Positions 18,093 through 53,863 of a stretch of DNA of 64,000 nt are shown here, in pieces. The notes under the pieces are model-generated. The model worked only from the letters and a program-made list of their open reading frames with translations. It was not told the DNA's origin and made no database searches. Made by a program: the position numbers and the translations under genes. Numbering within the stretch: position 1 is the first letter of the stretch; each line of letters opens with the position of its first letter. Source of the stretch: an uncultured Bacilli bacterium (GTDB lineage Bacteria > Bacillota_I > Bacilli_A > RF39 > UBA660); NCBI GenBank assembly GCA_944331895.1, contig CALVIX010000004.1, positions 62,001 to 126,000 on the forward strand, in the 5' to 3' direction.

Positions 18093-18122
18093 AGAAAAAG
18101 ACTATATGTCTTTCTTTTTTTC
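18093..18122. terminator. Bidirectional terminator
   Basis: AAAAAGAC-TATAT-GTCTTTCT hairpin with A and T runs, shared by the tail-anchored protein gene and the germination operon converging on it. Confidence 0.7.
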
Positions 18123-19205
18123 GGTATAAAATATTTTGAGCATAACTCCAAGGGGAAGTATGAAAAAGAAGAAGAATATAAAAAATGGATATATTTTAGA
18201 TAAGAAATGATATGCATCAGTGTTCGTTGGAAAAATAAATTCACTCAGGATAAAAATAATTCCAAGTAAAATGGTATAAATTATTTTTTCACTTTTATTA
18301 TCGTGTGGGTGCCATATTCTTTTAATACCATTCGCAAGAAAATAAACAGCGATTGCACATGTAATCAACATGTCAAATATCCATTGAAGGGACAATGTAT
18401 TTTCCACTCGCGTGATAAATCCTAAGATAGAGACTCTTTTTAAAATATGAAATTCTGCATATTGGTATAGTTGACATAACTCTATTCCTAAAATAGAAAG
18501 GGTACAAAAAGCAATAATAAATAACATTAGATTAGTGATCAAATAAGCACCGATCACGTGTTGATTGAAATGTCGATCTTGTTTCATTTGTTCTTTGGGT
18601 ATGATGGTAAGTAAAAAAATGGGGAGAATGTTATAGATCATATAGTGTAAAGAACCCGTCATAATTGGTTTTAATCCTTCGTCTGCAAATGGTCTTAAGT
18701 TATCAATATCAATTTGTCCTACGAGTCCGATAAAGCTAAGTAAATATAGAAATAGATCTATATACAATAGAATCATGATGACGCGAGCAAAAGTAGGAAG
18801 CCCTTTTGATAACATATACCATATACCAATAGCAAAGATAATTCCTATCAAAACAACAGGGGTTCGATATAGATATTGGGAGTTAATGAAATTGCATAAG
18901 TTATAAAATATAATGACAGCGAGAGAAAGAACGAAGGAGAGCAATAAAAGATTGATGATGAGAGCTATTTTGCGGCCAAATAATTCTTGATTTAATTCGA
19001 TGATAGAAAGATTTGGTTTATAGTTCATAATATAAAGGAATATATAAATTGGAATCAATCCTATGATAATAGCAAATAAGATAGATATGGGAGTATTTTG
19101 TTTAGAAATGAAAAATAAATTGTTGATAGAAATTCCAACAAAACAAGAATGCATAATGAAATAGATAAAAGAATCGAACTGTATATTACTAATTTGCTTT
19201 CTCAT
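18102..19205 (-). CDS. Spore germination receptor subunit B (GerAB/GerKB family permease)
   Basis: A 367-residue protein with about ten membrane helices, of the GerAB/amino-acid-permease-like family (APC superfamily). N-terminal ISNIQFDSFIYFIMHSCFVGIS and the RPFADEGLKPIMTGS segment fit GerB subunits, which bind the germinant within the inner spore membrane. It is the third gene of the operon and overlaps the C-subunit gene by 17 nt. The A-C-B gene order is that of B. subtilis gerKA-gerKC-gerKB. The ligand cannot be deduced. Confidence 0.93.
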   Translation of the reverse strand: MRKQISNIQFDSFIYFIMHSCFVGISINNLFFISKQNTPISILFAIIIGLIPIYIFLYIMNYKPNLSIIELNQELFGRKIALIINLLLLSFVLSLAVIIFYNLCNFINSQYLYRTPVVLIGIIFAIGIWYMLSKGLPTFARVIMILLYIDLFLYLLSFIGLVGQIDIDNLRPFADEGLKPIMTGSLHYMIYNILPIFLLTIIPKEQMKQDRHFNQHVIGAYLITNLMLFIIAFCTLSILGIELCQLYQYAEFHILKRVSILGFITRVENTLSLQWIFDMLITCAIAVYFLANGIKRIWHPHDNKSEKIIYTILLGIIFILSEFIFPTNTDAYHFLSKIYPFFIFFFFFILPLGVMLKIFYTEKKKDI

Positions 19206-20397
19206 TTCTTATATCCTCCTCTTTTTGAACAGTATCATTGAGAGAACCTTTCGTCTCAAGCTTTAGTGATACATCAAAGTTAACTTCCATATATGGGAAA
19301 ATATCATCATCCCATAGATTTTGTACATTTTTAAAGTAGTTAGGATGGTGGCGATAGAAGTATAAACCAAATCCAAAGATATCAGATTTATACTCGTTCT
19401 GTGCGATAGAAATCGCACTTTGCAACATATCTTGAAGGGAAGATTCAAATTTTTTCGTTAATTTGTTTAATTCTTTTGGCTGCAGTAGATTATAAGCACA
19501 ATTGATTTCCTGTAATGATCCTTCCGCACTTACTTTAATGTTTACAGAGGGTTGATTTTTATCAAGCTGGTAATCTCTATCAACGTGAATATTAGTAATG
19601 TTGGCATTTGCAAAATTGGTTCCGTCACATTTTGTTGTGACAATTACATTTTTTGCATTACCATTGATAATATTGATTCCTCTACTTTCTTCACGTTTTG
19701 CAAACCCGACAAGTTTGTCGTTTTTGAATATTCCCAAATTACTCAATTCAATATAGGTTTTAGGCTCGGAATTTTCTAGATTGGCCATGTTAGCACCTTC
19801 CTCGGAATCACCGCTAATAATGATGCTAGGTAATACGGGATTGATGCCAGGGCGTAAAACACTACGTACAAATTGACTATATCCTATGTTTGTAGAAATC
19901 GACTGATTCGTACTAGAGTTTTGCAAGTTAATTACGATATTTTGAGAAGGAAATGCTTCTAAAGGAGAGAGCACTTTGACGACGTCTTTTGCTTTTTGAT
20001 CTTTGGTGATCAGAAAGAAGAATTTTTTTCTAGATTCAGGATCTCTCATGAATAAATCGACCACTTTAAAAACGCCTTCTTTGGCAATGTCACTGCTCAT
20101 AACGATGACAGAAACATGTCCTAAATATGTAGATCTTGGATTCTTTAAATCAATCTCCCTCATTGCTTCTGATAGAGTAGGTCCAACTCCACTAAAGACA
20201 GTCGTTTGGCTTTCTCCTTCTTTACTGCTAACTTGTGCTTTTTTTGCATTCGCAATGGAGTAACTAATTTCATAGCCGCTTTCAACTTTATCTATCGCAA
20301 CAGCGGTCACGATAGATAAGTCATCTAATTCTTTGTAATCAAAGCATCCAGTAAAGAGGAACATAAAAAATAGAATCGATAATAATTTATATTTCAG
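19189..20397 (-). CDS. Spore germination receptor subunit C (Ger(x)C lipoprotein), possible CTG start
   Basis: A Ger(x)C-family protein: FDYKELDDLSIVTAVAIDK right after the lipidated Cys, DPESRKKFFFLITKDQKA, and a C-terminal domain. GerC subunits are lipoproteins on the outer face of the inner spore membrane. The first ATG (20364) would leave only MFLFTGC, too short for a lipoprotein signal. The frame extends upstream without ATG, GTG or TTG, but a CTG at 20397 has AGGAG 9 nt before it and yields LKYKLLSILFFMFLFTGC, a normal signal. I therefore place the start at CTG; the conservative alternative is 20364. It overlaps the A-subunit gene by 11 nt. Confidence 0.9.
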   Translation of the reverse strand: MKYKLLSILFFMFLFTGCFDYKELDDLSIVTAVAIDKVESGYEISYSIANAKKAQVSSKEGESQTTVFSGVGPTLSEAMREIDLKNPRSTYLGHVSVIVMSSDIAKEGVFKVVDLFMRDPESRKKFFFLITKDQKAKDVVKVLSPLEAFPSQNIVINLQNSSTNQSISTNIGYSQFVRSVLRPGINPVLPSIIISGDSEEGANMANLENSEPKTYIELSNLGIFKNDKLVGFAKREESRGINIINGNAKNVIVTTKCDGTNFANANITNIHVDRDYQLDKNQPSVNIKVSAEGSLQEINCAYNLLQPKELNKLTKKFESSLQDMLQSAISIAQNEYKSDIFGFGLYFYRHHPNYFKNVQNLWDDDIFPYMEVNFDVSLKLETKGSLNDTVQKEEDIRNEKAN

Positions 20398-21874
20398 ATT
20401 GATCAGCTCCTAATCTACGTCGATTTTTCTTTGTGAAAAAATCTGGACGATATTTCATCTTGTTACGAGAACGTCTGATCAACCCATCTTTTATAATGGC
20501 TTGATCAAGAGGACTGAATGGAATTAAGTAAGGTGTTCCCATAATTTCTAGACTACATAATTTCGTAAGGAAAATAATACCGATAACGACAAATCCTACA
20601 AGCCCCATAAAAGCAGATGCTAGCAAGAAAACGACGCGCCAAAATCTCAGTGCATTGATAAAATCGATATCGGTAAAAAGAAACCCGGATATAGAAGTCA
20701 TAGCGACAACGATAACGACGATCGGGGATACGATACCAGCGTTTACTGCCGCATCTCCTAAAACGAGTGCTCCGACAATACTGATGGAAGATCCCATCGC
20801 GCTAGGAATGCGAATATCACTCTCTCTTAAAATTTCGAAAGTGGTAATGAGAATTAAAATTTCAAAGATGGTTGGTATCGGGACGCCTTCTCGTTGTACA
20901 GCAATAGATATCAGTAATCGGTCAGGAATAATTTCCTGGTTGAATGTCGTCATTGCAATATATAGCGCAGGAGTTGTGATTGTTATGAGAAATGCGAGAA
21001 ATCTTAAAGCTCTAGATAAACTAATATTAGAAGGTTTTTGATAATAATCATCCGCGGTTTGGAAAAAATCCATAAATAAACCCGGAAGAACAATGACATA
21101 TGGAGAATTTTCTACGATGATTGCAATTTTCCCGTCTAAGATGGATCCACATACTAGATCAGGTCTTTCTGTAGTCACTGCTTTTGGGAAGTCCGTATAT
21201 TGCTTAGGAGATAAATATTCCAGGATATATCCACAATCTAAGATTCCATCGATATCTATTTTTTCTAGTCGATCGACTATTTTTTTTATTTTTTCTTGTG
21301 ATACTACATCCTGTAAATAAGCAACCCCAACTTTTGTTTTAGTTCTCCTTCCAATCATTGTTTCATTGATCCATAAGTTAGAATCTTTGATTCTTTTTCG
21401 AATCAATCCTAGATTCATCATATAATTTTCTGTAAAGCTATCTTTAGGTCCTCGCAAATTCTTTTCGTCATTTGCTTCAGCAACACCTCTATCCAATACG
21501 CTTTTTGTTTCTAGTGCGATCGCGCTATGATTACCATCGATAAAAATAATCGTAAAACCAGAAGCTAAAAAGTAAAAGAGATTATCGAAATCTTCTACCG
21601 TTCTCATCTTGCTATTTAAAATAGTATTTTTAAGATGTTGATAAACTTTTTTCGTACTTAATTTGATCTCATCTTTGACGTCTTCACGCAAACTTCGCAT
21701 TAAAAAGTCACTTACTTTATCATCGCTTGCTACACTTTCTATGTTCATATATGCGAGTGTGTTTTTTTTCAAATGAATGATGCGAGAGTTAATATCACAA
21801 CTGTTTCCATTCATTGCTTTTACAGTATCTATATTTTTTTGTAAGTTTTTATATAGTTTTTTCGTTTCTTTCAT
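20387..21874 (-). CDS. Spore germination receptor subunit A (GerA/GerKA family)
   Basis: A 495-residue GerA-family protein. The soluble N-terminal half includes MRSLREDV, ETKSVLDRGVAEANDEKNLRGPKDSFTENYMMNLGLIRKRI and the DGKIAIIVENSPYVIVLPGLFMDFFQ segment; the C-terminal half has about five membrane helices with RPSNISLSRALRF-like, REGVPIPTIFEILILITTFEILRESDIRIP and SIVGALVLGDAAVNAGIVSPIVVIVVA. These are hallmark A-subunit motifs; recent work on the family describes A subunits as oligomeric ion channels. The ATG at 21874 follows GAGGG. First gene of an A-C-B operon, divergent from rlmCD. Confidence 0.96.
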   Translation of the reverse strand: MKETKKLYKNLQKNIDTVKAMNGNSCDINSRIIHLKKNTLAYMNIESVASDDKVSDFLMRSLREDVKDEIKLSTKKVYQHLKNTILNSKMRTVEDFDNLFYFLASGFTIIFIDGNHSAIALETKSVLDRGVAEANDEKNLRGPKDSFTENYMMNLGLIRKRIKDSNLWINETMIGRRTKTKVGVAYLQDVVSQEKIKKIVDRLEKIDIDGILDCGYILEYLSPKQYTDFPKAVTTERPDLVCGSILDGKIAIIVENSPYVIVLPGLFMDFFQTADDYYQKPSNISLSRALRFLAFLITITTPALYIAMTTFNQEIIPDRLLISIAVQREGVPIPTIFEILILITTFEILRESDIRIPSAMGSSISIVGALVLGDAAVNAGIVSPIVVIVVAMTSISGFLFTDIDFINALRFWRVVFLLASAFMGLVGFVVIGIIFLTKLCSLEIMGTPYLIPFSPLDQAIIKDGLIRRSRNKMKYRPDFFTKKNRRRLGADQSEI

Positions 21875-28905: not shown

Positions 28906-31230
28906 ATGTTTGGAAATTTTACAGAAGAAGCAAGAAAAATACTAGTGATGGCAAAGTCAGAAATGAAAGAGTTAAAACATCCATATGTAGGAAGCGAACA
29001 TTTACTACTCGCTATTTTAAAAAATAAAAATAACGTGTCAAAGCGATTAGAGGAGTATGATATTACTTATGAAAACGTAAGACGAGAAATAGAGCAAATT
29101 ATCGGCGTTGGATCGGTAGAAGCATCTTGGTTTTTATATACACCATTATTGAAAAGAATCTTAGAAAATGCGATTTTAGATAGCAAGGAAAACAATCAAA
29201 GCGAAGTTACGATCGAACATTTATTCTCTAGTTTATTGGAAGAAGGAGAAGGTGTTGCAATCCGTATTCTATTAGGAATGGGAATCGATTTGGACGAGTT
29301 GTACGGAGAATTTTCATATAAAATTAGTCGTACGATGAAAGGGAAAAAACATAAAAAATTACTCTTGGAAGAATTAGGAGTAGATTTAACCAAAAAAGCA
29401 AGGGATCAAGAACTCGATCCTGTGATTGGAAGAGATAAAGAAATGCAACGTGTGTTGGAAATATTATCGCGTCGTACGAAAAATAATCCTTTACTCATCG
29501 GAGAAGCTGGAGTGGGGAAAACAGCTATTGTAGAAGAACTTAGTCGTCGCATCGTACAAGGAGACGTTCCGATGTCGTTAAAAAATAAGCGTATTATTAG
29601 TCTCGATATGGCAACAGCTGTAGCAGGGACGAAATATCGTGGAGAGTTTGAAGAACGAATTCGAAAGATATTAAAAGAAATAGAAGAAAATGATGACATG
29701 ATTCTTTTCATCGATGAAATTCATACGCTTGTTGGAGCAGGTGGAGCCGAAGGAGCAATCGATGCGTCCAATATTTTTAAACCTGCTTTGGCACGTGGAA
29801 AACTTCGTTGTATAGGCGCGACAACGACACAAGAATATAAAAAGTTCATGGAAGAAGATAGTGCGTTGGAACGTCGTTTTCAAAAAGTATATATCGAGGC
29901 TCCAAAAAAAGAAGTTGTGAAAGAAATATTGATGAAATTAAAGCCAATCTACGAATCTTTTCATTATGTTACGATAAAAGAAGATATAATCGATTTTATC
30001 ATCGAATTAAGTGAGAGATATATTTACGATCGAAATCAACCCGATAAAGCAATTGATTTAATGGATGAAGTTTGTGCGAAAGTCAGTTTAAAAGAAAGCA
30101 AAGAATATACAAAGTATCATCAACTTGCCAAAAAACTAAAAGAGGTAATCGAAGTGAAAAATCAGGCGATATTGGATAATCACTTTGATGTTGCATCGAA
30201 ATGGAAAGAAAAAGAAAATCAACTGGCAGACCAAATGAATCAGTTAGAATTAAAATTATATCGAAAGAAAAAGACAAAACACGTAACAAAGAAGGACGTA
30301 GCAGAAGTGTTGCATTTAAAGACGAAAATTCCCACTTATGAAATATTAAAAGAAAATAAGAAGATCGTGGAGGAAATTGAAAAGAATATTACGAGACGTA
30401 TCGTCGGTCAAAAAAAGGCAGTAGCAGAGACAATTCAAGTTGCTAAACGGATTAAATTAGGGCTAAAAGAAGAAAGTAAACCGTATTCTATGTTATATTG
30501 TGGTCCAAGTGGAGTTGGGAAAACAGAGTTATCAAAAGTATTTGGATCGGAATTGGTAGGAAAGGAGAATGTTATTCGTCTTGATATGAGCGAATACACG
30601 GAAGCCCATGCAGTGAGTAAAATTGTAGGAGCTCCACCGGGATACGTAGGGTATAAAGATCATCAAAACGTTTTAGAAGAAATTCGAAACAAACCTTATT
30701 CTGTCTTAATTTTAGATGAAATCGAGAAGGCACATCCAAGTATTATTCATCTGTTGTTTCAAATTTTAGATGAAGGGAAAATAAAGGATTCCAATGGTAT
30801 CGCAGTACATTTTGATCATGTTGTTATATTGATGACATCTAATATAGGGTTTCACGAAATCAATATAGGATTTACTAAAGATAACAACGACATGGTATTG
30901 ACCAAGTTAAAAGAAAATTTTTCAATCCCATTTATCAATCGGATTGATCAAATTATTGTGTTTGATGCATTGCAAGAATCAGAGATTCGTCAAATTATAG
31001 AACAACAATTAGAAGCTTTGAAACAAAAATATAAGCGACGGGGAATTCAGATCAAATTTGGGAAAGAAATTCTCCCTACACTAGTTAATTTAAGTGATTA
31101 TCTCGAATTTGGAGCACGGAGAATTTCTAAGTTAATTAAAGACAAAATCGAAAATCAAATGATGGAAGATATACTGAATCACAAGGAGTGTATTATGATA
31201 ACAAAGGTGAAAGAAGAGGCAACTGTTTGA
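28906..31230 (+). CDS. clpC: ATP-dependent Clp protease ATP-binding subunit (ClpC-type)
   Basis: A 774-residue Hsp100 AAA+ unfoldase that feeds proteins to ClpP. The Clp N-domain repeats lie at ~1-145; AAA1 has GEAGVGKT (200-207) and [14 protein letters not shown]; a short UVR-like/M-domain coiled segment is at ~395-430; AAA2 has GPSGVGKT (533-540) and [10 protein letters not shown]. The short middle segment marks ClpC rather than ClpB. It is somewhat shorter than Bacillus ClpC (810). The gene stands alone: the ctsR-mcsA-mcsB genes of the classical Bacillus operon are absent and I see no CtsR heptad repeat upstream. GGGAG precedes the ATG. Confidence 0.94.
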
Positions 31231-46310: not shown

Positions 46311-48422
46311 ATGGAAGAACAGATATTAGAGATATTTAGGCACGAAAAAAGAGCTTATTCTGTTTCGGAATTGGAAGACTTACTCGGGCTTGGTTCTGTA
46401 GAAGAACTAAAAGAATTATTGAAGACTTTAAATCGTTTGGAAGACCAATTAAAAGTATATCGTACCAATAAAAATAATTATATGTTATTTCAAAACAGTC
46501 ATTTGAAGATAGGTAAATTACTAGGAAATAAAAAAGGATTTGGGTTTGTCGATATCGAAGGAGACGACGATGTTTTTATCGCGCCATCTCATATGAATAA
46601 TGCGATCCATGGAGATACTGTCATTGTTGAGATTACTTCTCAAAAAGGAAGCGATCTAGAAGGACGTATTGTAAAGATTGTCGATCGTAAGTTAAAACAG
46701 ATGGTTGGAGAATTTTATTATAAAGGCGGAAAAGGACATGTTGATCTAGATGATGATAAAGTTAAGATCAATATCGAAATTGATCAAGATAAAACATTAG
46801 GTGCTATGAATGGGCACAAGGTGTTAGTAAAATTATTAAACAAGTTAAAAGATAATAATTATAAAGGGCAAGTTGTCAAAATTTTAGGACATAAAAATGA
46901 TCCAGGGGTTGATATCCTGTCGATTGTAGCAAAATATGAAATTAACGATACATTTCCTGATGAAGTGATGGAGCAAGTAGAAGGAATTGAACTAGAAGTA
47001 TCAGAAGAGGAAAAGAAAAATCGACGTGATTTGAGAGATCATATGATTTTTACAATCGATGGAGATGACGCGAAAGATTTAGATGATGCAGTAGAATTTA
47101 AGAGGCTTGAAAATGGACATTATTTCTTAGGTGTCCACATTGCCGATGTATCTTACTATGTAAAGGAAAATACACCGCTAGATAAAGAAGCATTTGAACG
47201 TGGAACGAGTGTCTATTTAGCAGATCGAGTTATTCCGATGTTGCCGCATAAATTATCAAATGGAATTTGTTCGTTAAATGGTGGAGTAGATCGTTTAGCA
47301 ATGTCATGCGAAATGGAAATCGACGAGAAAGGAAATGTCGTAGATTATGATATTTTTGAAAGTGTCATCAACTCTAAGAAGAGAATGACATATAAATGTG
47401 TTAATCAAATATTAGAGAAAAATGAAATACCAGAGGGATATGAACCGTTTGTAGAATCGCTACATGGTATGGCAGAACTAGCCCATGTTTTACGTAAAAA
47501 TAAAGAAGAAAGAGGATATATCGATTTTGATATCGACGAAGCTAAAATTGTCGTAAACGAACAAGGAGAGGCAATCGATGTCGTCTTACGTGAACGTGGT
47601 ACTGGAGAAAAACTAATCGAAGACTTCATGATCGCTGCAAATGAAACGGTAGCAACACATATTTACTTTATGGAACTTCCATTTATCTATCGTGTTCATG
47701 GGGAACCGAATGAAGAAAAGATTAACAATTTTGTTCGATTTGTTGCTATGCTTGGATACAAGATCGAAGGCAAAGTAAAAGATATTCATCCAAAGACGAT
47801 GCAGATGATATTGAATTCTTTGAAAGATAAAAAAGAGTTCCATATTTTATCATCCCTATTATTGCGTAGTATGCAAAAAGCTGTATACGACAAAAAGAAT
47901 ATAGGACACTTCGGATTGGCTAGTAAGTGTTATACTCATTTTACTTCTCCGATTCGTAGATATCCAGATACGACAGTACATAGATTATTGCGTACATACT
48001 TATTTGAAAATCATATGGATAAAGATACGATCAATTATTGGGATCAAAAGCTTATTTTTGTAGCAGAACATTCTTCAGAAAGGGAGCGAGCAGCAGTTGC
48101 TTGTGAACGTGAAGTAGATGATATGAAAAAAGCGGAATATATGATGAAACATATCGGTGAAGAATATGAAGGAATCGTATCTAGTGTCATCAGTTTCGGA
48201 ATGTTTGTCGAACTTGATAACCTAGTAGAAGGTCTTGTTCATATCGATACGTTGACAGATGATCAATATCACTTTGATGAGACGACGTTCGCACTTGTAG
48301 GAGAAAGAAACAAACGAGGATATCGTTTGGGAGACCGCGTAAAAATCGTTGTTACAAATGCGAATAAGCAGACAAAAACAGTTGATTTTGAATTAGTCAA
48401 AGAAAAGAAAGAAGTCGAGTAA
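46311..48422 (+). CDS. rnr: Ribonuclease R (first copy)
   Basis: A 703-residue 3'-5' exoribonuclease able to unwind structured RNA. It has an N-terminal winged helix (~1-60), cold-shock domains (LLGNKKGFGFVDIEGDDDVFIAPSHMNNAIHGDTV), the RNB catalytic domain with DGDDAKDLDDAV (~248-260, Mg-binding Asp cluster) and LADRVIPMLPHKLSNGICSLN, and a C-terminal S1 domain (EGIVSSVISFGMFVELDNLVEGLVHI). In bacteria RNase R also degrades non-stop mRNA with tmRNA and SmpB. GAGGTGGG precedes the ATG. An unrelated S66 peptidase gene separates it from smpB. Confidence 0.96.
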   Translation: MEEQILEIFRHEKRAYSVSELEDLLGLGSVEELKELLKTLNRLEDQLKVYRTNKNNYMLFQNSHLKIGKLLGNKKGFGFVDIEGDDDVFIAPSHMNNAIHGDTVIVEITSQKGSDLEGRIVKIVDRKLKQMVGEFYYKGGKGHVDLDDDKVKINIEIDQDKTLGAMNGHKVLVKLLNKLKDNNYKGQVVKILGHKNDPGVDILSIVAKYEINDTFPDEVMEQVEGIELEVSEEEKKNRRDLRDHMIFTIDGDDAKDLDDAVEFKRLENGHYFLGVHIADVSYYVKENTPLDKEAFERGTSVYLADRVIPMLPHKLSNGICSLNGGVDRLAMSCEMEIDEKGNVVDYDIFESVINSKKRMTYKCVNQILEKNEIPEGYEPFVESLHGMAELAHVLRKNKEERGYIDFDIDEAKIVVNEQGEAIDVVLRERGTGEKLIEDFMIAANETVATHIYFMELPFIYRVHGEPNEEKINNFVRFVAMLGYKIEGKVKDIHPKTMQMILNSLKDKKEFHILSSLLLRSMQKAVYDKKNIGHFGLASKCYTHFTSPIRRYPDTTVHRLLRTYLFENHMDKDTINYWDQKLIFVAEHSSERERAAVACEREVDDMKKAEYMMKHIGEEYEGIVSSVISFGMFVELDNLVEGLVHIDTLTDDQYHFDETTFALVGERNKRGYRLGDRVKIVVTNANKQTKTVDFELVKEKKEVE

Positions 48423-49956: not shown

Positions 49957-50397
49957 ATGATAGAAATTAACAACCGCAAAGCAAAATTTGACTATGAAAT
50001 AGTAGATACGATAGAAGCTGGAATTGTATTAAAGGGAACAGAAATAAAATCAATCCGAAATGGAAATGCGAATTTGAAAGATAGTTATGCGATCGTTCGA
50101 AATGGAGAAGTATTTCTTCTAAATATGTTTGTAAGTGAATATAAAGAGGGAAATCAATTTAATCACGATGAAACAAGAACGAGAAAGTTATTACTACATA
50201 AAAAGGAAATCTTAAAATTACATGATAAAATTCGCCTAGAAGGATTTACTTTAGTACCTTTGAAATTATACTTTAAAGAAAATCATGCGAAAATTTTACT
50301 CGGTATTGCGAGAGGAAAGAAGCAATACGATAAAAGAGAAAGTATTAAAAAGCGTGATTCTATGCGTGAAGCACGTGCAGCCATGAAGAGAAACTAA
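49957..50397 (+). CDS. smpB: SsrA-binding protein
   Basis: A 146-residue Smp[42 protein letters not shown] and the [12 protein letters not shown] segment form the beta-barrel that binds tm[34 protein letters not shown] is the C-terminal helix that enters the empty mRNA channel of a stalled ribosome. AGGACGGTG precedes the ATG. The second RNase R gene follows after 20 nt and ssrA after that, giving a complete ribosome-rescue locus. Confidence 0.97.
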
Positions 50398-50417: not shown

Positions 50418-52580
50418 ATGACGAATTTGGAACAAAAAATGATAATAGCTTTATTATGTGTGAATGAGGCAGTACCTGTGCAATATTTTGAACGTATGAT
50501 GACGAAAGAGGAAGTAGACACAACGATTCATGCACTCATGGAGAAAAAAATTATCCACAGATCTCATCATGGCAATGGAAAATATCAACTGACTGCGAAT
50601 GCTTCCATCGAAGGGAATGTCGTCGCGTTAGATGAAAACTATGTGATTGTTGCACCATCTGGAGATCACAATATTTTTGTTCCAAGATCCCCTTATGAGC
50701 ATATTAGAATCGGAGATACCGTACTTGTAAATGCGATTTATCACTTTGATGGAAAATGTTTAGGAAAGATTCAAAAAAGAGTGATTCATCATAAAAAAAA
50801 TTTAGTTGGAATTCCAATTCAAATAGAAAACGATTATTATGTCAATTACAAAGGAACTTTGTATAAGATTAATATGACACGGAAAAAGGATGATATTTTA
50901 AAGAAAGTAATTCGCTATAAACTAGTAAAAAAGAAAAGATATCAATCAACTTATGCAGAGATGATTAAAGTGATCGGCTCTCCGACGGACAAGGGGATTC
51001 AAAATAGTATCGTGTTAAATAGACTTGGAATTCACGATCACTTTCCAAAGGCAGTTCAGCTAGAGGTTAAATCTTTTCCAGATAAAGTGACAAAGAGAGA
51101 TTTATTTGGTCGAGTCGATTGCAGAGATCATTTGGTAGTGACGATCGATGATGCGGATACAAAGGATATGGATGATGCAATTGAGGTAACGAAAACCGAG
51201 GATGGATATCGATTGATCGTACATATTGCCGATGTTGCGCATTATGTAAAATATGGTTCTAAGTTATGGAAGGAAGTCTTTTATAGGGGGACAAGTATCT
51301 ACTGTTCGGATCGTGTAGAACCTATGTTACCGGAAGAATTATCCAATCATCTATGTTCGCTGAAAGAAGGCGTTGATCGTCTTGCGATGTCTTGTGAACT
51401 ATGGTTTGATAAAAAAGGAAATGTAGTAAAAAGAGATATTTACGAAAGTGTAATTCGTTCCGAAAAAAAGATGAGTTACCAAGCTGTGAATCAAGTATTT
51501 CAAGGTAACATACCGGATGATTATCTTCCGTTTGTTTCAAATTTATCAGTGATGAAGGAATTATCAGATTTGATTCGTGGGAAGATGTTGAGAGAAGGAT
51601 ATTTGAATTTTAACATTCCTGAAACGAGAATCACGACAGGGAAAGAAGTGGAACCTAATATTCGTTTGCGAACTCGTTCGATTGCCGAAGACATGATAGA
51701 AAACTTTATGATTATTGCAAATGAAGAGGTTGCGAAATACTTTGTAGAGAAGAATGCCTTAGCTATCTATCGAATTTTAGAACGCCCAAAGATGCAAAAA
51801 GTATTAAAAATTTTAAGAGAGTTAGAACTTTCTGGCTATCGTATGAATTTAGAGGTGCCGGAAAATATAACTCCTCATTTTATACAATCGCTTTTAAATG
51901 ATATTCATACAACTAAGGATAAAATTGTTCAAGAAACGCTTGTCCATGTCATGAATCGGGCGGAGTATTCCCTGGAGGAAATGATGCATTTTGGTATCGG
52001 TTCGATCTATACGCATTTTACATCTCCGATTCGAAGAATCAACGATTTATGTATTCATATGCTATTAAAACAGCACATCAAACAATGGGATTTCTCAGAG
52101 TATGATGATGAAAAGTTGAGAGAGATTCTTTTGAGTGTGGCAACGCAAGCGACGAAGACGGAAAGAATAGCCAATGCCGTAGAACAAACGGATAAAAAAT
52201 TATGCGAGGTAGAATATATGTTGCATCATAAAGAGGAAGAGTTTAATGCACAGATTATCAATATGAATGGGCATCGAATGATCGTGCAGTTAGAAGATAG
52301 TTTGATCGAAGGGAATGTGTTCTATAAAGATGTAAACCAAGAATGGAAGTATTTTGATCAAAAGAAAACATTAGTGAGAAAAGATGGAACAGAATTAAAA
52401 GTAGGTGACTATATCAGAGTAGTATTATCTCCTGATTGTTATGAATTATCTACCGTTGATTTAGCAATGCAGCTGATAAACGGGAATATCAAACTTTTAA
52501 ATTTTTCGATTATTGGTGTTGGAAAAATGGAAAAAGAAACCAAGAAATTTCTGTGTAAGAAAAATTGCCAAAATGCATAA
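50418..52580 (+). CDS. RNase II/R family exoribonuclease (second, divergent copy)
   Basis: A 720-residue second RNB-family enzyme: an N-terminal winged helix (EKMIIALLCVNEAVPVQYFERMMTKEEVDTTI), cold-shock-like regions, catalytic DDADTKDMDDAIEV (~244) and CSDRVEPMLPEELSNHLCSLK, and the ITHFTSPIRR-type segment YTHFTSPIRRINDLCIH, then an S1-like end (EFNAQIINMNGHRMIVQLEDSLIEGNV) that is weaker than in the first copy. Active-site Asp residues are all kept. It lies in an apparent smpB operon, 20 nt downstream, and its 3' end carries the ssrA promoter. It is likely devoted to ribosome-rescue RNA decay, by inference from position. Confidence 0.93.
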   Translation: MTNLEQKMIIALLCVNEAVPVQYFERMMTKEEVDTTIHALMEKKIIHRSHHGNGKYQLTANASIEGNVVALDENYVIVAPSGDHNIFVPRSPYEHIRIGDTVLVNAIYHFDGKCLGKIQKRVIHHKKNLVGIPIQIENDYYVNYKGTLYKINMTRKKDDILKKVIRYKLVKKKRYQSTYAEMIKVIGSPTDKGIQNSIVLNRLGIHDHFPKAVQLEVKSFPDKVTKRDLFGRVDCRDHLVVTIDDADTKDMDDAIEVTKTEDGYRLIVHIADVAHYVKYGSKLWKEVFYRGTSIYCSDRVEPMLPEELSNHLCSLKEGVDRLAMSCELWFDKKGNVVKRDIYESVIRSEKKMSYQAVNQVFQGNIPDDYLPFVSNLSVMKELSDLIRGKMLREGYLNFNIPETRITTGKEVEPNIRLRTRSIAEDMIENFMIIANEEVAKYFVEKNALAIYRILERPKMQKVLKILRELELSGYRMNLEVPENITPHFIQSLLNDIHTTKDKIVQETLVHVMNRAEYSLEEMMHFGIGSIYTHFTSPIRRINDLCIHMLLKQHIKQWDFSEYDDEKLREILLSVATQATKTERIANAVEQTDKKLCEVEYMLHHKEEEFNAQIINMNGHRMIVQLEDSLIEGNVFYKDVNQEWKYFDQKKTLVRKDGTELKVGDYIRVVLSPDCYELSTVDLAMQLINGNIKLLNFSIIGVGKMEKETKKFLCKKNCQNA

Positions 52581-52593
52581 ACTATGATATAAT
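52565..52593 (+). promoter_or_regulatory. Promoter of ssrA
   Basis: TTGCCA (52565-52570), 17-nt spacer, TATAAT (52588-52593) with extended TGA. It overlaps the last codons of the second RNase R gene and lies 11 nt before the mature tmRNA 5' end. Confidence 0.85.
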
Positions 52594-52604: not shown

Positions 52605-52989
52605 GGGGATGTCTAGGTTTCGACGGGATTACTAGGTCTTTTGTGGCAAGTCGGAGGTACACGTTACGTACAAACAGAAAAATAACTGGAAAAAATTTAA
52701 AAAATGTATTAGCTAACATGTTCTCTACAAAGAGTGCTGTAGCTTTCGCCTAATTTAAGAAAAGGCATACGCTTCTATTTATTCTTTGCCTACGAGAATA
52801 TCTAGGGGTTCATCAAAGTAGGATATAGCAATTTTTCGTCTAAGAAAATTGTGGAACTTTATTAGACTTACGAAAAGATAAGTTGTTGATTCCTCACATC
52901 TTTTCGGACAATGAACGAATCAACTAAACTTGTAGAAGCAGAAGGGATGGTAGTTTCGGACATCGGTTCAAGTCCGATCATCTCCACCA
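52605..52989 (+). ncRNA. ssrA: tmRNA (SsrA), with an AFA-ending tag
   Basis: One-piece tmRNA. The 5' GGGGATG pairs with CATCTCC at the 3' end, followed by encoded A and CCA; the T-arm is GGTTCAAGTCC. The tag frame runs from about GGA 52688 to the TAA at 52751-52753: GKNLKN at the start and SAVAFA at the end, 21 codons if GGA is the resume codon. Ordinary Bacilli tags end in ALAA; endings in AFA are known from Mollicutes, where Lon rather than ClpXP degrades tagged proteins. The following text shows pseudoknot-like repeats up to ~52900. Confidence 0.96.
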
Positions 52990-53001: not shown

Positions 53002-53025
53002 ACGAACTAGTGATAGTTCGTTTTT
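53002..53025 (+). terminator. Terminator of ssrA
   Basis: ACGAACTA-GTGA-TAGTTCGT hairpin with five T. Confidence 0.88.
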
Positions 53026-53077: not shown

Positions 53078-53863
53078 TTACATTGAAATGTTATTGTTTT
53101 GAATGTGTGGAATTTCTATTTTTTGGTTAGAAAAGTTCCAATTCATTTGATAATCTGGCAATAACTTTGTTTTAATTGGCATCATTCTTGGAATTAAAAT
53201 AACTGCTTCGAATTGTTTCATCATTTTTAATTCTTCTACTGTAATCAGTGGGATGACCATACCGTGTTCTTCTTTATTACCACACATTTTACTAATTTCT
53301 TCTAATGTTTCCATATTGTTAGATAACAAATAGATTATGTTTCTGAATGTCATTTTAATAATTTCAGCATCTTCTTTTCCATATAGATTTGTAAGTGCTT
53401 GCAAACTTTGAATTAAGGCAGTGATTCGAATAGAAAGTCCACGTGAATAGCTTGCGATATTATTAAAATTAACAATGGGCATAAGTTTATCAAATTCATC
53501 TAAGATGATATCCGTACCATGCTTTTGATTGCTGTATAGTCGAATTGTTTGATATGCTTGATCTATGAACATCGGAATGAGAACGCTACTATATGAACTA
53601 GTGCCACTGATCATAAATACTGCTGTTTTTTCTGTGGCGATTGTTTTAAAATCGAAATCCGTACATGCAGTCATATTAGAAAATTGTACTCTTGAAATAT
53701 ATTTTTTCAATTTTTGATTGGTAACAGATAAAATACTTCCTTTGGTTTCAGGTGGAGCTAATAACGTTCCAACTAAATTCATGTAGATTGTAGAAGTATG
53801 ATCTAAACTATCCATTAACTCTTTTGCGTCGCTTATGTCAGAATCTTTTTTGGTTTCTTGCAA
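53078..53863 (-). pseudogene. Truncated VirD4/TraG-type conjugation coupling ATPase
   Basis: About 261 residues matching the C-terminal part of VirD4/TraG-type coupling proteins of Firmicutes conjugative elements: LIPMFIDQAYQTIRLYSNQKHGTDIILDEFDKLMPI (Walker B with the DEFD acidic pair), SYSRGLSIRITALIQSLQALTNLYGKEDAEII and FRNIIYLLSNNMETLEEISKMCGNKEE. The N-terminal membrane helices and Walker A of these ~600-aa proteins are absent; the frame starts at a TTG with no ribosome site and no other conjugation gene adjoins. It is therefore a remnant of an integrative conjugative element, lying 90 nt after the ssrA 3' end. Confidence 0.82.

Follow-up and report, generated by a model that had tools for sequence, protein, structure and literature searches.

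Background

In Mesoplasma florum and Mycoplasma, the tmRNA tag is reported to be degraded by Lon (work of Gur and Sauer, 2008, and of Ge and Karzai, 2009, as cited in extracts of PMC3985003, PMC9382460 and PMC9097571), and these extracts describe the NYAFA-ending tag of Mesoplasma as read by Lon (PMC9382460) and Mycoplasma as having an AFA end and missing ClpXP (PMC3985003). The reviews PMC3985003 and PMC9382460, in the same extracts, treat ALAA, or the tag, as conserved across most bacteria, with Mycoplasma as an exception. The terminal Ala-Ala is given as most important for ClpXP in an extract on the E. coli ClpX-ssrA structure (PMC7652416), and sporulation loss is the subject of a further paper (PMC10868615). 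Among the literature matches listed, no title or abstract opening mentions AFA tags or a loss of ClpX for the families treated here, and no tally of tag endings was found in the available parts of the tmRNA database papers PMC4131195 and PMC11915505.

Here we analyzed a tmRNA gene in a window (the whole stretch of DNA under study, 64,000 nucleotides) from genome G000 of family f1, an assembly of 1.12 Mb in 13 contigs which is 83% complete. The preliminary description of this DNA had proposed that a lineage which kept sporulation has, or shares the ancestry of, the Mollicutes-type tag.

The ssrA gene and its tag

One tmRNA is called by ARAGORN within the window, and its gene closes a run of genes for RNase R, a carboxypeptidase, smpB, an RNB-domain protein and the tmRNA itself. 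The features of this region are as follows.

46311-48422, plus strand: RNase R (TIGR02063, 872.9 bits, above cut-off)
49957-50397, plus strand: smpB, protein partner of tmRNA (NF003843, 206.2 bits, and TIGR00086, 198 bits, both above cut-off)
52565-52593, plus strand: promoter-like site TTGCCA-17-TATAAT (11 of 12 consensus matches; overlaps the end of the upstream gene)
52605-52989, plus strand: ssrA, one-piece tmRNA gene with encoded CCA (ARAGORN; RF00023)
52688-52753, plus strand: tag reading frame GKNLKNVLANMFSTKSAVAFA followed by TAA (ARAGORN coding part 84-149 of the gene; frame common to relatives)
52742-52750, plus strand: codons GCT TTC GCC for the C-terminal Ala-Phe-Ala (from the sequence and its codons)
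53002-53021, plus strand: terminator-like stem-loop 3' of ssrA (8-pair stem, then TTTTATAT on the plus strand, read by eye)

The tag frame opens with GGA at 52688, closes with TAA at 52751-52753 and holds 21 sense codons (GGA AAA AAT TTA AAA AAT GTA TTA GCT AAC ATG TTC TCT ACA AAG AGT GCT GTA GCT TTC GCC TAA). RF00023 matches at the same coordinates as the ARAGORN call, end to end (model positions 1-374 of 374), and scores 162.5 bits (E 2.7e-65) against a gathering score of 47. A tag ending in AFA, of about 21 codons from GGA, had been read from the letters beforehand, and the ARAGORN call, the covariance model and the codons all bear it out. The frame is common to other family f1 genomes, e.g. 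ANKIKNAVANMFGGNQAVAFA (L027), and to named loci, e.g. GNKLKNAFATLFTKNTVAFA (L206), so neither a wrong or chance frame nor an error of local sequencing is likely to have produced the AFA ending. The tmRNA gene and its AFA-ending tag are thus real.

The 3' edge of the promoter-like site lies 11 bases upstream of ssrA; this single site is not significant, because shuffles yield sites of this kind no less often (2 in the region, mean of 3.2 in shuffles). For the stem at 53002-53021, the scan gave a minus-strand entry only.

Two neighbouring genes were also noted. The second RNB-domain protein, between smpB and ssrA (50418-52580, plus strand), is RNase R-like with 483 bits, which is below the RNase R cut-off; the domain search found no S1 domain in it, and no RNB match was found at this smpB-ssrA position in the 96 loci searched, some of which have no smpB. 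Directly 3' of ssrA lies a gene for a TraG/VirD4-like coupling protein (53078-53863, minus strand, partial model match), possibly what is left of an element that had integrated at the 3' end of ssrA.

Sporulation genes and genetic code

Mollicutes are not known to carry sporulation genes, and mycoplasmas read TGA as Trp. Genome G000 differs from this description, as it encodes Spo0A and carries the following cluster in the window.

18102-21874, minus strand: germination cluster of spore permease, GerAC-type protein and GerA (PF03845, PF25198/PF05504 and PF03323, above cut-off)

Peptidoglycan-enzyme genes are also present, and the lon frame of G000 has no internal TGA, unlike the panel genomes of f4, f15 and f23. 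The view that this lineage kept sporulation genes is therefore upheld.

Distribution of tag endings

In family f1, 63 tags were assembled, of which 62 were read among 193 genomes searched for tmRNA and one (G444) came from the class sample; the set is not random, since 30 of the 63 were best-scoring tmRNA matches, five were read by eye, and G011 was dropped as it yielded no tag. Phe or Tyr followed by a single terminal Ala ([F/Y]A) closes 57 of these tags, the remainder ending in [F/Y]AA (4), AAA (1) and ALA (1). Their lengths as called by ARAGORN are 8 to 30 residues, 35 of the 63 having 13 or fewer, and a few of the long ones may start too early. The long tags have the core K-x-K-N-x-x-A-x-x-F...VAFA in common with the window tag, and the short ones read GNRNQLAFA and similar. 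The expectation that a long tag goes with an AFA end was not borne out by these lengths, and no significant link between the [F/Y]A end and long tags was obtained (11 pairs, median p 0.625). Public loci found via SmpB at 63-80% identity (L206-L246) gave 30 tags among 41 loci, with 25 ending in [F/Y]A, one in [F/Y]AA, one in ALAA, one in LALA and two in YYLA and LLLN, which are doubtful-looking calls. The [F/Y]A ending is the family-wide state in f1.

Outside the family, 125 tags were used from 338 class genomes (G517 and G330 were dropped, no tag being obtained), and 17 of them end in LAA, 53 in [F/Y]AA and 22 in [F/Y]A; these counts do not support ALAA, supposed earlier to be the usual ending, as the rule in this class. 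The positive control G195 returned the published Mesoplasma florum tag minus its first Ala (extract of PMC9097571), together with Lon and neither ClpX nor ClpP, as reported for the group. Family f4, which holds the Mesoplasma tag, ends in LAA in four of the six genomes read, and these four are without ClpX. Family f13 has two ClpX-bearing genomes of one genus, both ending in NYAFAA, and nine genomes without ClpX, of which five end in NYAFA, one in LAFA and three in FAC. The five NYAFA genomes measure 2.1-3.2 Mb, so genome reduction is not required for this ending; nor is loss of ClpX, because f3 (AFA in 2/2 genomes) and f5 (Cys-ending tags in 5/6 genomes) keep ClpX. Tags ending in Cys (AFC, FAC, YAC) were seen at L079, L078 and L080 (f5), L086 (f21), L081 (f13) and in their relatives.

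Distribution of proteases

The two candidates for reading the tag in G000 are given below.

G000, contig C5, 14818-17100: Lon (839.5 bits, above cut-off)
Window 28906-31230, plus strand: ClpC-like two-ring AAA unfoldase (Clp_N, AAA, AAA_lid_9, AAA_2 and ClpB_D2-small domains)

Lon, whose presence was one of the points raised for checking, exceeds the cut-off in 169 of 193 family f1 genomes including G000 and falls below it in 24; two genomes without Lon above the cut-off, G080 and G067, have ClpP and tags ending in LAFA. In the genome panel Lon is above cut-off in 74/79 genomes and ClpP is matched in 43/79, two of these matches (G300, G400) being weak.

No recognisable ClpX gene was found in G000, its single match being a weak AAA hit in a genome which is 83% complete, and none of 57 family f1 genomes passes the TIGR00382 cut-off. 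Among 395 class genomes (completeness at least 85% except the window's own genome; TIGR00382 cut-off 370.75 bits) ClpX passes in 49. Single-contig genomes, e.g. G215 and G341, are also without it, as are some larger genomes, of 2-3 Mb, from other parts of the class, which agrees with the suggestion that tag-specific proteolysis may have shifted before genome reduction. Some of the zeros are possibly gaps: the G227 contig begins inside lon, while G284 and G390 have clpX just before lon, and G366 and G197, scored as lacking ClpX, each have a ClpX-bearing congener. In G284 (C2) and G390 (C22), both of f16, clpX, lon and ssrA are clustered, no more than about 7 kb apart. Of the 57 family f1 genomes, 20 encode a divergent ClpX-like protein scoring 117-205 bits against a cut-off of 370.75, and G000 does not; several of the divergent ClpX-like AAA proteins (L162, L163, L164) have long N-termini, and one has an IrrE/M78-like domain.

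ClpP was not found in G000 with two models, and since this genome is 83% complete, the absence of ClpX and ClpP from it is weak evidence when taken alone; across f1 ClpP was found in 16/17 genomes in one test and 11/13 in another. The protein at 28906-31230 is named ClpC here by ourselves, all NCBIfam models matched (ClpB, ClpA and others) being below their cut-offs. Close to the position of the loop that binds ClpP in such unfoldases, it carries an IGF tripeptide. It could read the tag in place of Lon. G000 also has a ClpB-like gene (L179), matched by the ClpB model only from position 145.

ClpX and the terminal Ala-Ala

Outside f1, an Ala-Ala end is present in 28 of 35 genomes with ClpX vs 49 of 90 without it (Fisher p 0.008, relatedness ignored). 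The corresponding two-by-two table for the 74 rows of the tree panel gives p 0.14, and only three independent pairs were available, with means of 1.9 in the same direction, 0.3 in the opposite direction and 0.8 without difference; such a number of pairs gives no power, and with relatedness taken into account the link is not established. The ending tracks the presence of ClpX most clearly in family f13.

Altered recognition loops of ClpX were considered for the AFA and Cys ends and rejected, as the contact residues (Tyr-Val, Thr, Val and Arg/His) are unchanged in two f3 and four f5 sequences; these residues are those named in the extract of PMC7652416, placed by motif and not by alignment against E. 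coli itself. Individual variations were seen in the f5 genome G296, where K replaces R between two contact residues, in the f2 genome G193 (tag ending AAA), where N replaces H in RKH, and in G412, one of the two ClpX-bearing f13 genomes, whose aligned loop has no IGF tripeptide. Loss of ClpX is plausible as a permissive factor for the ending and is neither a proven cause nor a necessary one: both f3 genomes and five of six f5 genomes end in AFA or Cys with ClpX. Four f4 genomes also depart from the rule, ending in LAA without it.

Evolution of the ending

A Lon tree of 74 rows was built by a quick method with no root inferred, and the 15 rows of f1 form one group in it (SH-aLRT 100). On this tree at least 12 changes are needed for the [F/Y]A end, 19 for the Ala-Ala end and 4 for ClpX; as the root was not inferred, gains and losses are indistinguishable. 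The tag ending is evolutionarily labile, so AFA in both f1 and the mycoplasmas is poor evidence of a shared tag, and AFA looks like a recurrent ending of the larger group and not an invention of mycoplasmas.

Lon does not reject a clade that unites f1 with f4, f15 and f23, the mycoplasma-like families (p-AU 0.111), and it rejects one of f1 with f19 (p-AU 0.0019). The tag middles of some f1 and f19 members are nevertheless alike, as in ANMFGGNQAVAFA (L019) and ANFFGGNQAVAFAA (L097), which may reflect retention, transfer or convergence. Of the ancestry with Mollicutes proposed earlier, the part which concerns the organisms is compatible with Lon, while descent of the tag itself is not supported, given the number of changes and the LAA endings in f4.

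Interpretation

We read this locus as an ordinary intact tmRNA gene whose AFA tag is most likely read by Lon, with no need for ClpX, and whose likeness to Mycoplasma is mainly a parallel change; a probability of roughly 0.6 is given to this reading. That Lon degrades the tagged proteins, that release from ClpX was permissive and that the likeness arose in parallel are all three what we infer from genomes and tags. A stalled ribosome would receive alanine and then the 21-residue tag, giving the protein tail AGKNLKNVLANMFSTKSAVAFA. Where no ClpX is recognisable, the Ala-Ala end which ClpX contacts would no longer be needed, and the tail, with Phe beside its end and a hydrophobic, Phe-bearing middle, would most likely be read by the Lon of the genome. 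Tagged proteins would then go to Lon by analogy with Mesoplasma, and Lon is the likeliest reader because ClpX passes its cut-off in none of the 57 f1 genomes and Lon in 169 of 193. The analogy is weakened by one well-studied group of C-terminal Lon degrons (Yersinia), which has His at its end, not Ala (extract of PMC11986505). The [F/Y]A end would be a family state in a class rich in aromatic-Ala-Ala and aromatic-Ala ends, and the Mycoplasma likeness would have arisen mainly in parallel.

A serious rival to Lon, because most tested relatives have ClpP, is that, where ClpX is missing, the pair ClpC and ClpP acts as the main soluble reader, the tag being adapted to ClpC. The ClpP counts in f1, the IGF tripeptide of the window's ClpC-like protein, and G080 and G067 with their LAFA tags and ClpP speak for it; yet ClpP was not found in G000 itself, and AFA endings occur in G195, G201 and G248, where no ClpP was detected, so we regard this reading as rather unlikely. 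The end of the tag could also be shaped mainly by RNA structure: its placement in a helix would have made the loss of an Ala codon beside the stop neutral for proteolysis. The last tag codons do overlap a helix in the RF00023 alignment, and among tags with codons printed GCC precedes the stop in 8/9 of f1 vs GCT GCT in 5/6 of f19; however, Phe or Tyr before the last Ala is kept in 57/63 f1 tags of very different length, which indicates selection on the peptide and makes this account the least probable of those weighed here.

Inheritance of a true Mollicutes-type tag from a common ancestor of f1 and the mycoplasmas would draw on G195, which bears the Mesoplasma tag and ends in NYAFA, and on the clade which Lon does not reject. 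This reading is improbable to us: the Lon tree requires 12 or more changes of the end state, f4 is mostly LAA, the middles of the long f1 tags are unlike that of G195 and nearer to the AFAA tags of f19, and a clade of f1 with f19 is rejected. 

The ClpXP-to-Lon (or ClpCP) switch of Mycoplasma may be one case of a class-wide rewiring of degron and protease independent of genome reduction, as most sampled class genomes have no recognisable ClpX and endings (aromatic-Ala, aromatic-Ala-Ala and even Cys) changed repeatedly, also in 2-3 Mb genomes; this generalization is tentative, and we hold it at somewhat below even odds.

Value of the data

In a large family that does not belong to the mycoplasmas, tags usually end in [F/Y]A and ClpX is usually missing; both features turn up again in the class. 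These lineages can be used as natural replicates for the way in which a degron responds when the protease changes, and the short 9-residue tags could be compact Lon-type degrons, if Lon reads them.

Comparison with known systems

The window tag agrees with that of Mesoplasma florum and Mycoplasma in its AFA end, and G000 likewise encodes Lon and has no ClpX that was found. It differs in length and middle, as the Mesoplasma florum tag has 26 residues vs 21 encoded here and the window's middle is unrelated, without NYAFA; moreover, unlike Mesoplasma and Mycoplasma, most tested f1 members have ClpP and G000 has sporulation genes, and degradation by Lon is here a prediction. The tags of f19, e.g. 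GKNFLANLFGGNRQVAFAA, share with the window the core LAN-x-F...VAFA and similar codons, and this family resembles f1 in having no genome above the ClpX cut-off and Lon in all seven genomes tested, but its tags end in AFAA, one Ala more than the window tag, and its clade with f1 is rejected by Lon. In Bacillales and Lactobacillales, whose tags end in ALAA or AVAA, the gene is the same as in the window, and three of the seven called lie less than 200 bases from smpB, whereas all seven tags called from L247-L285 (39 loci) have LAA or VAA at the end.
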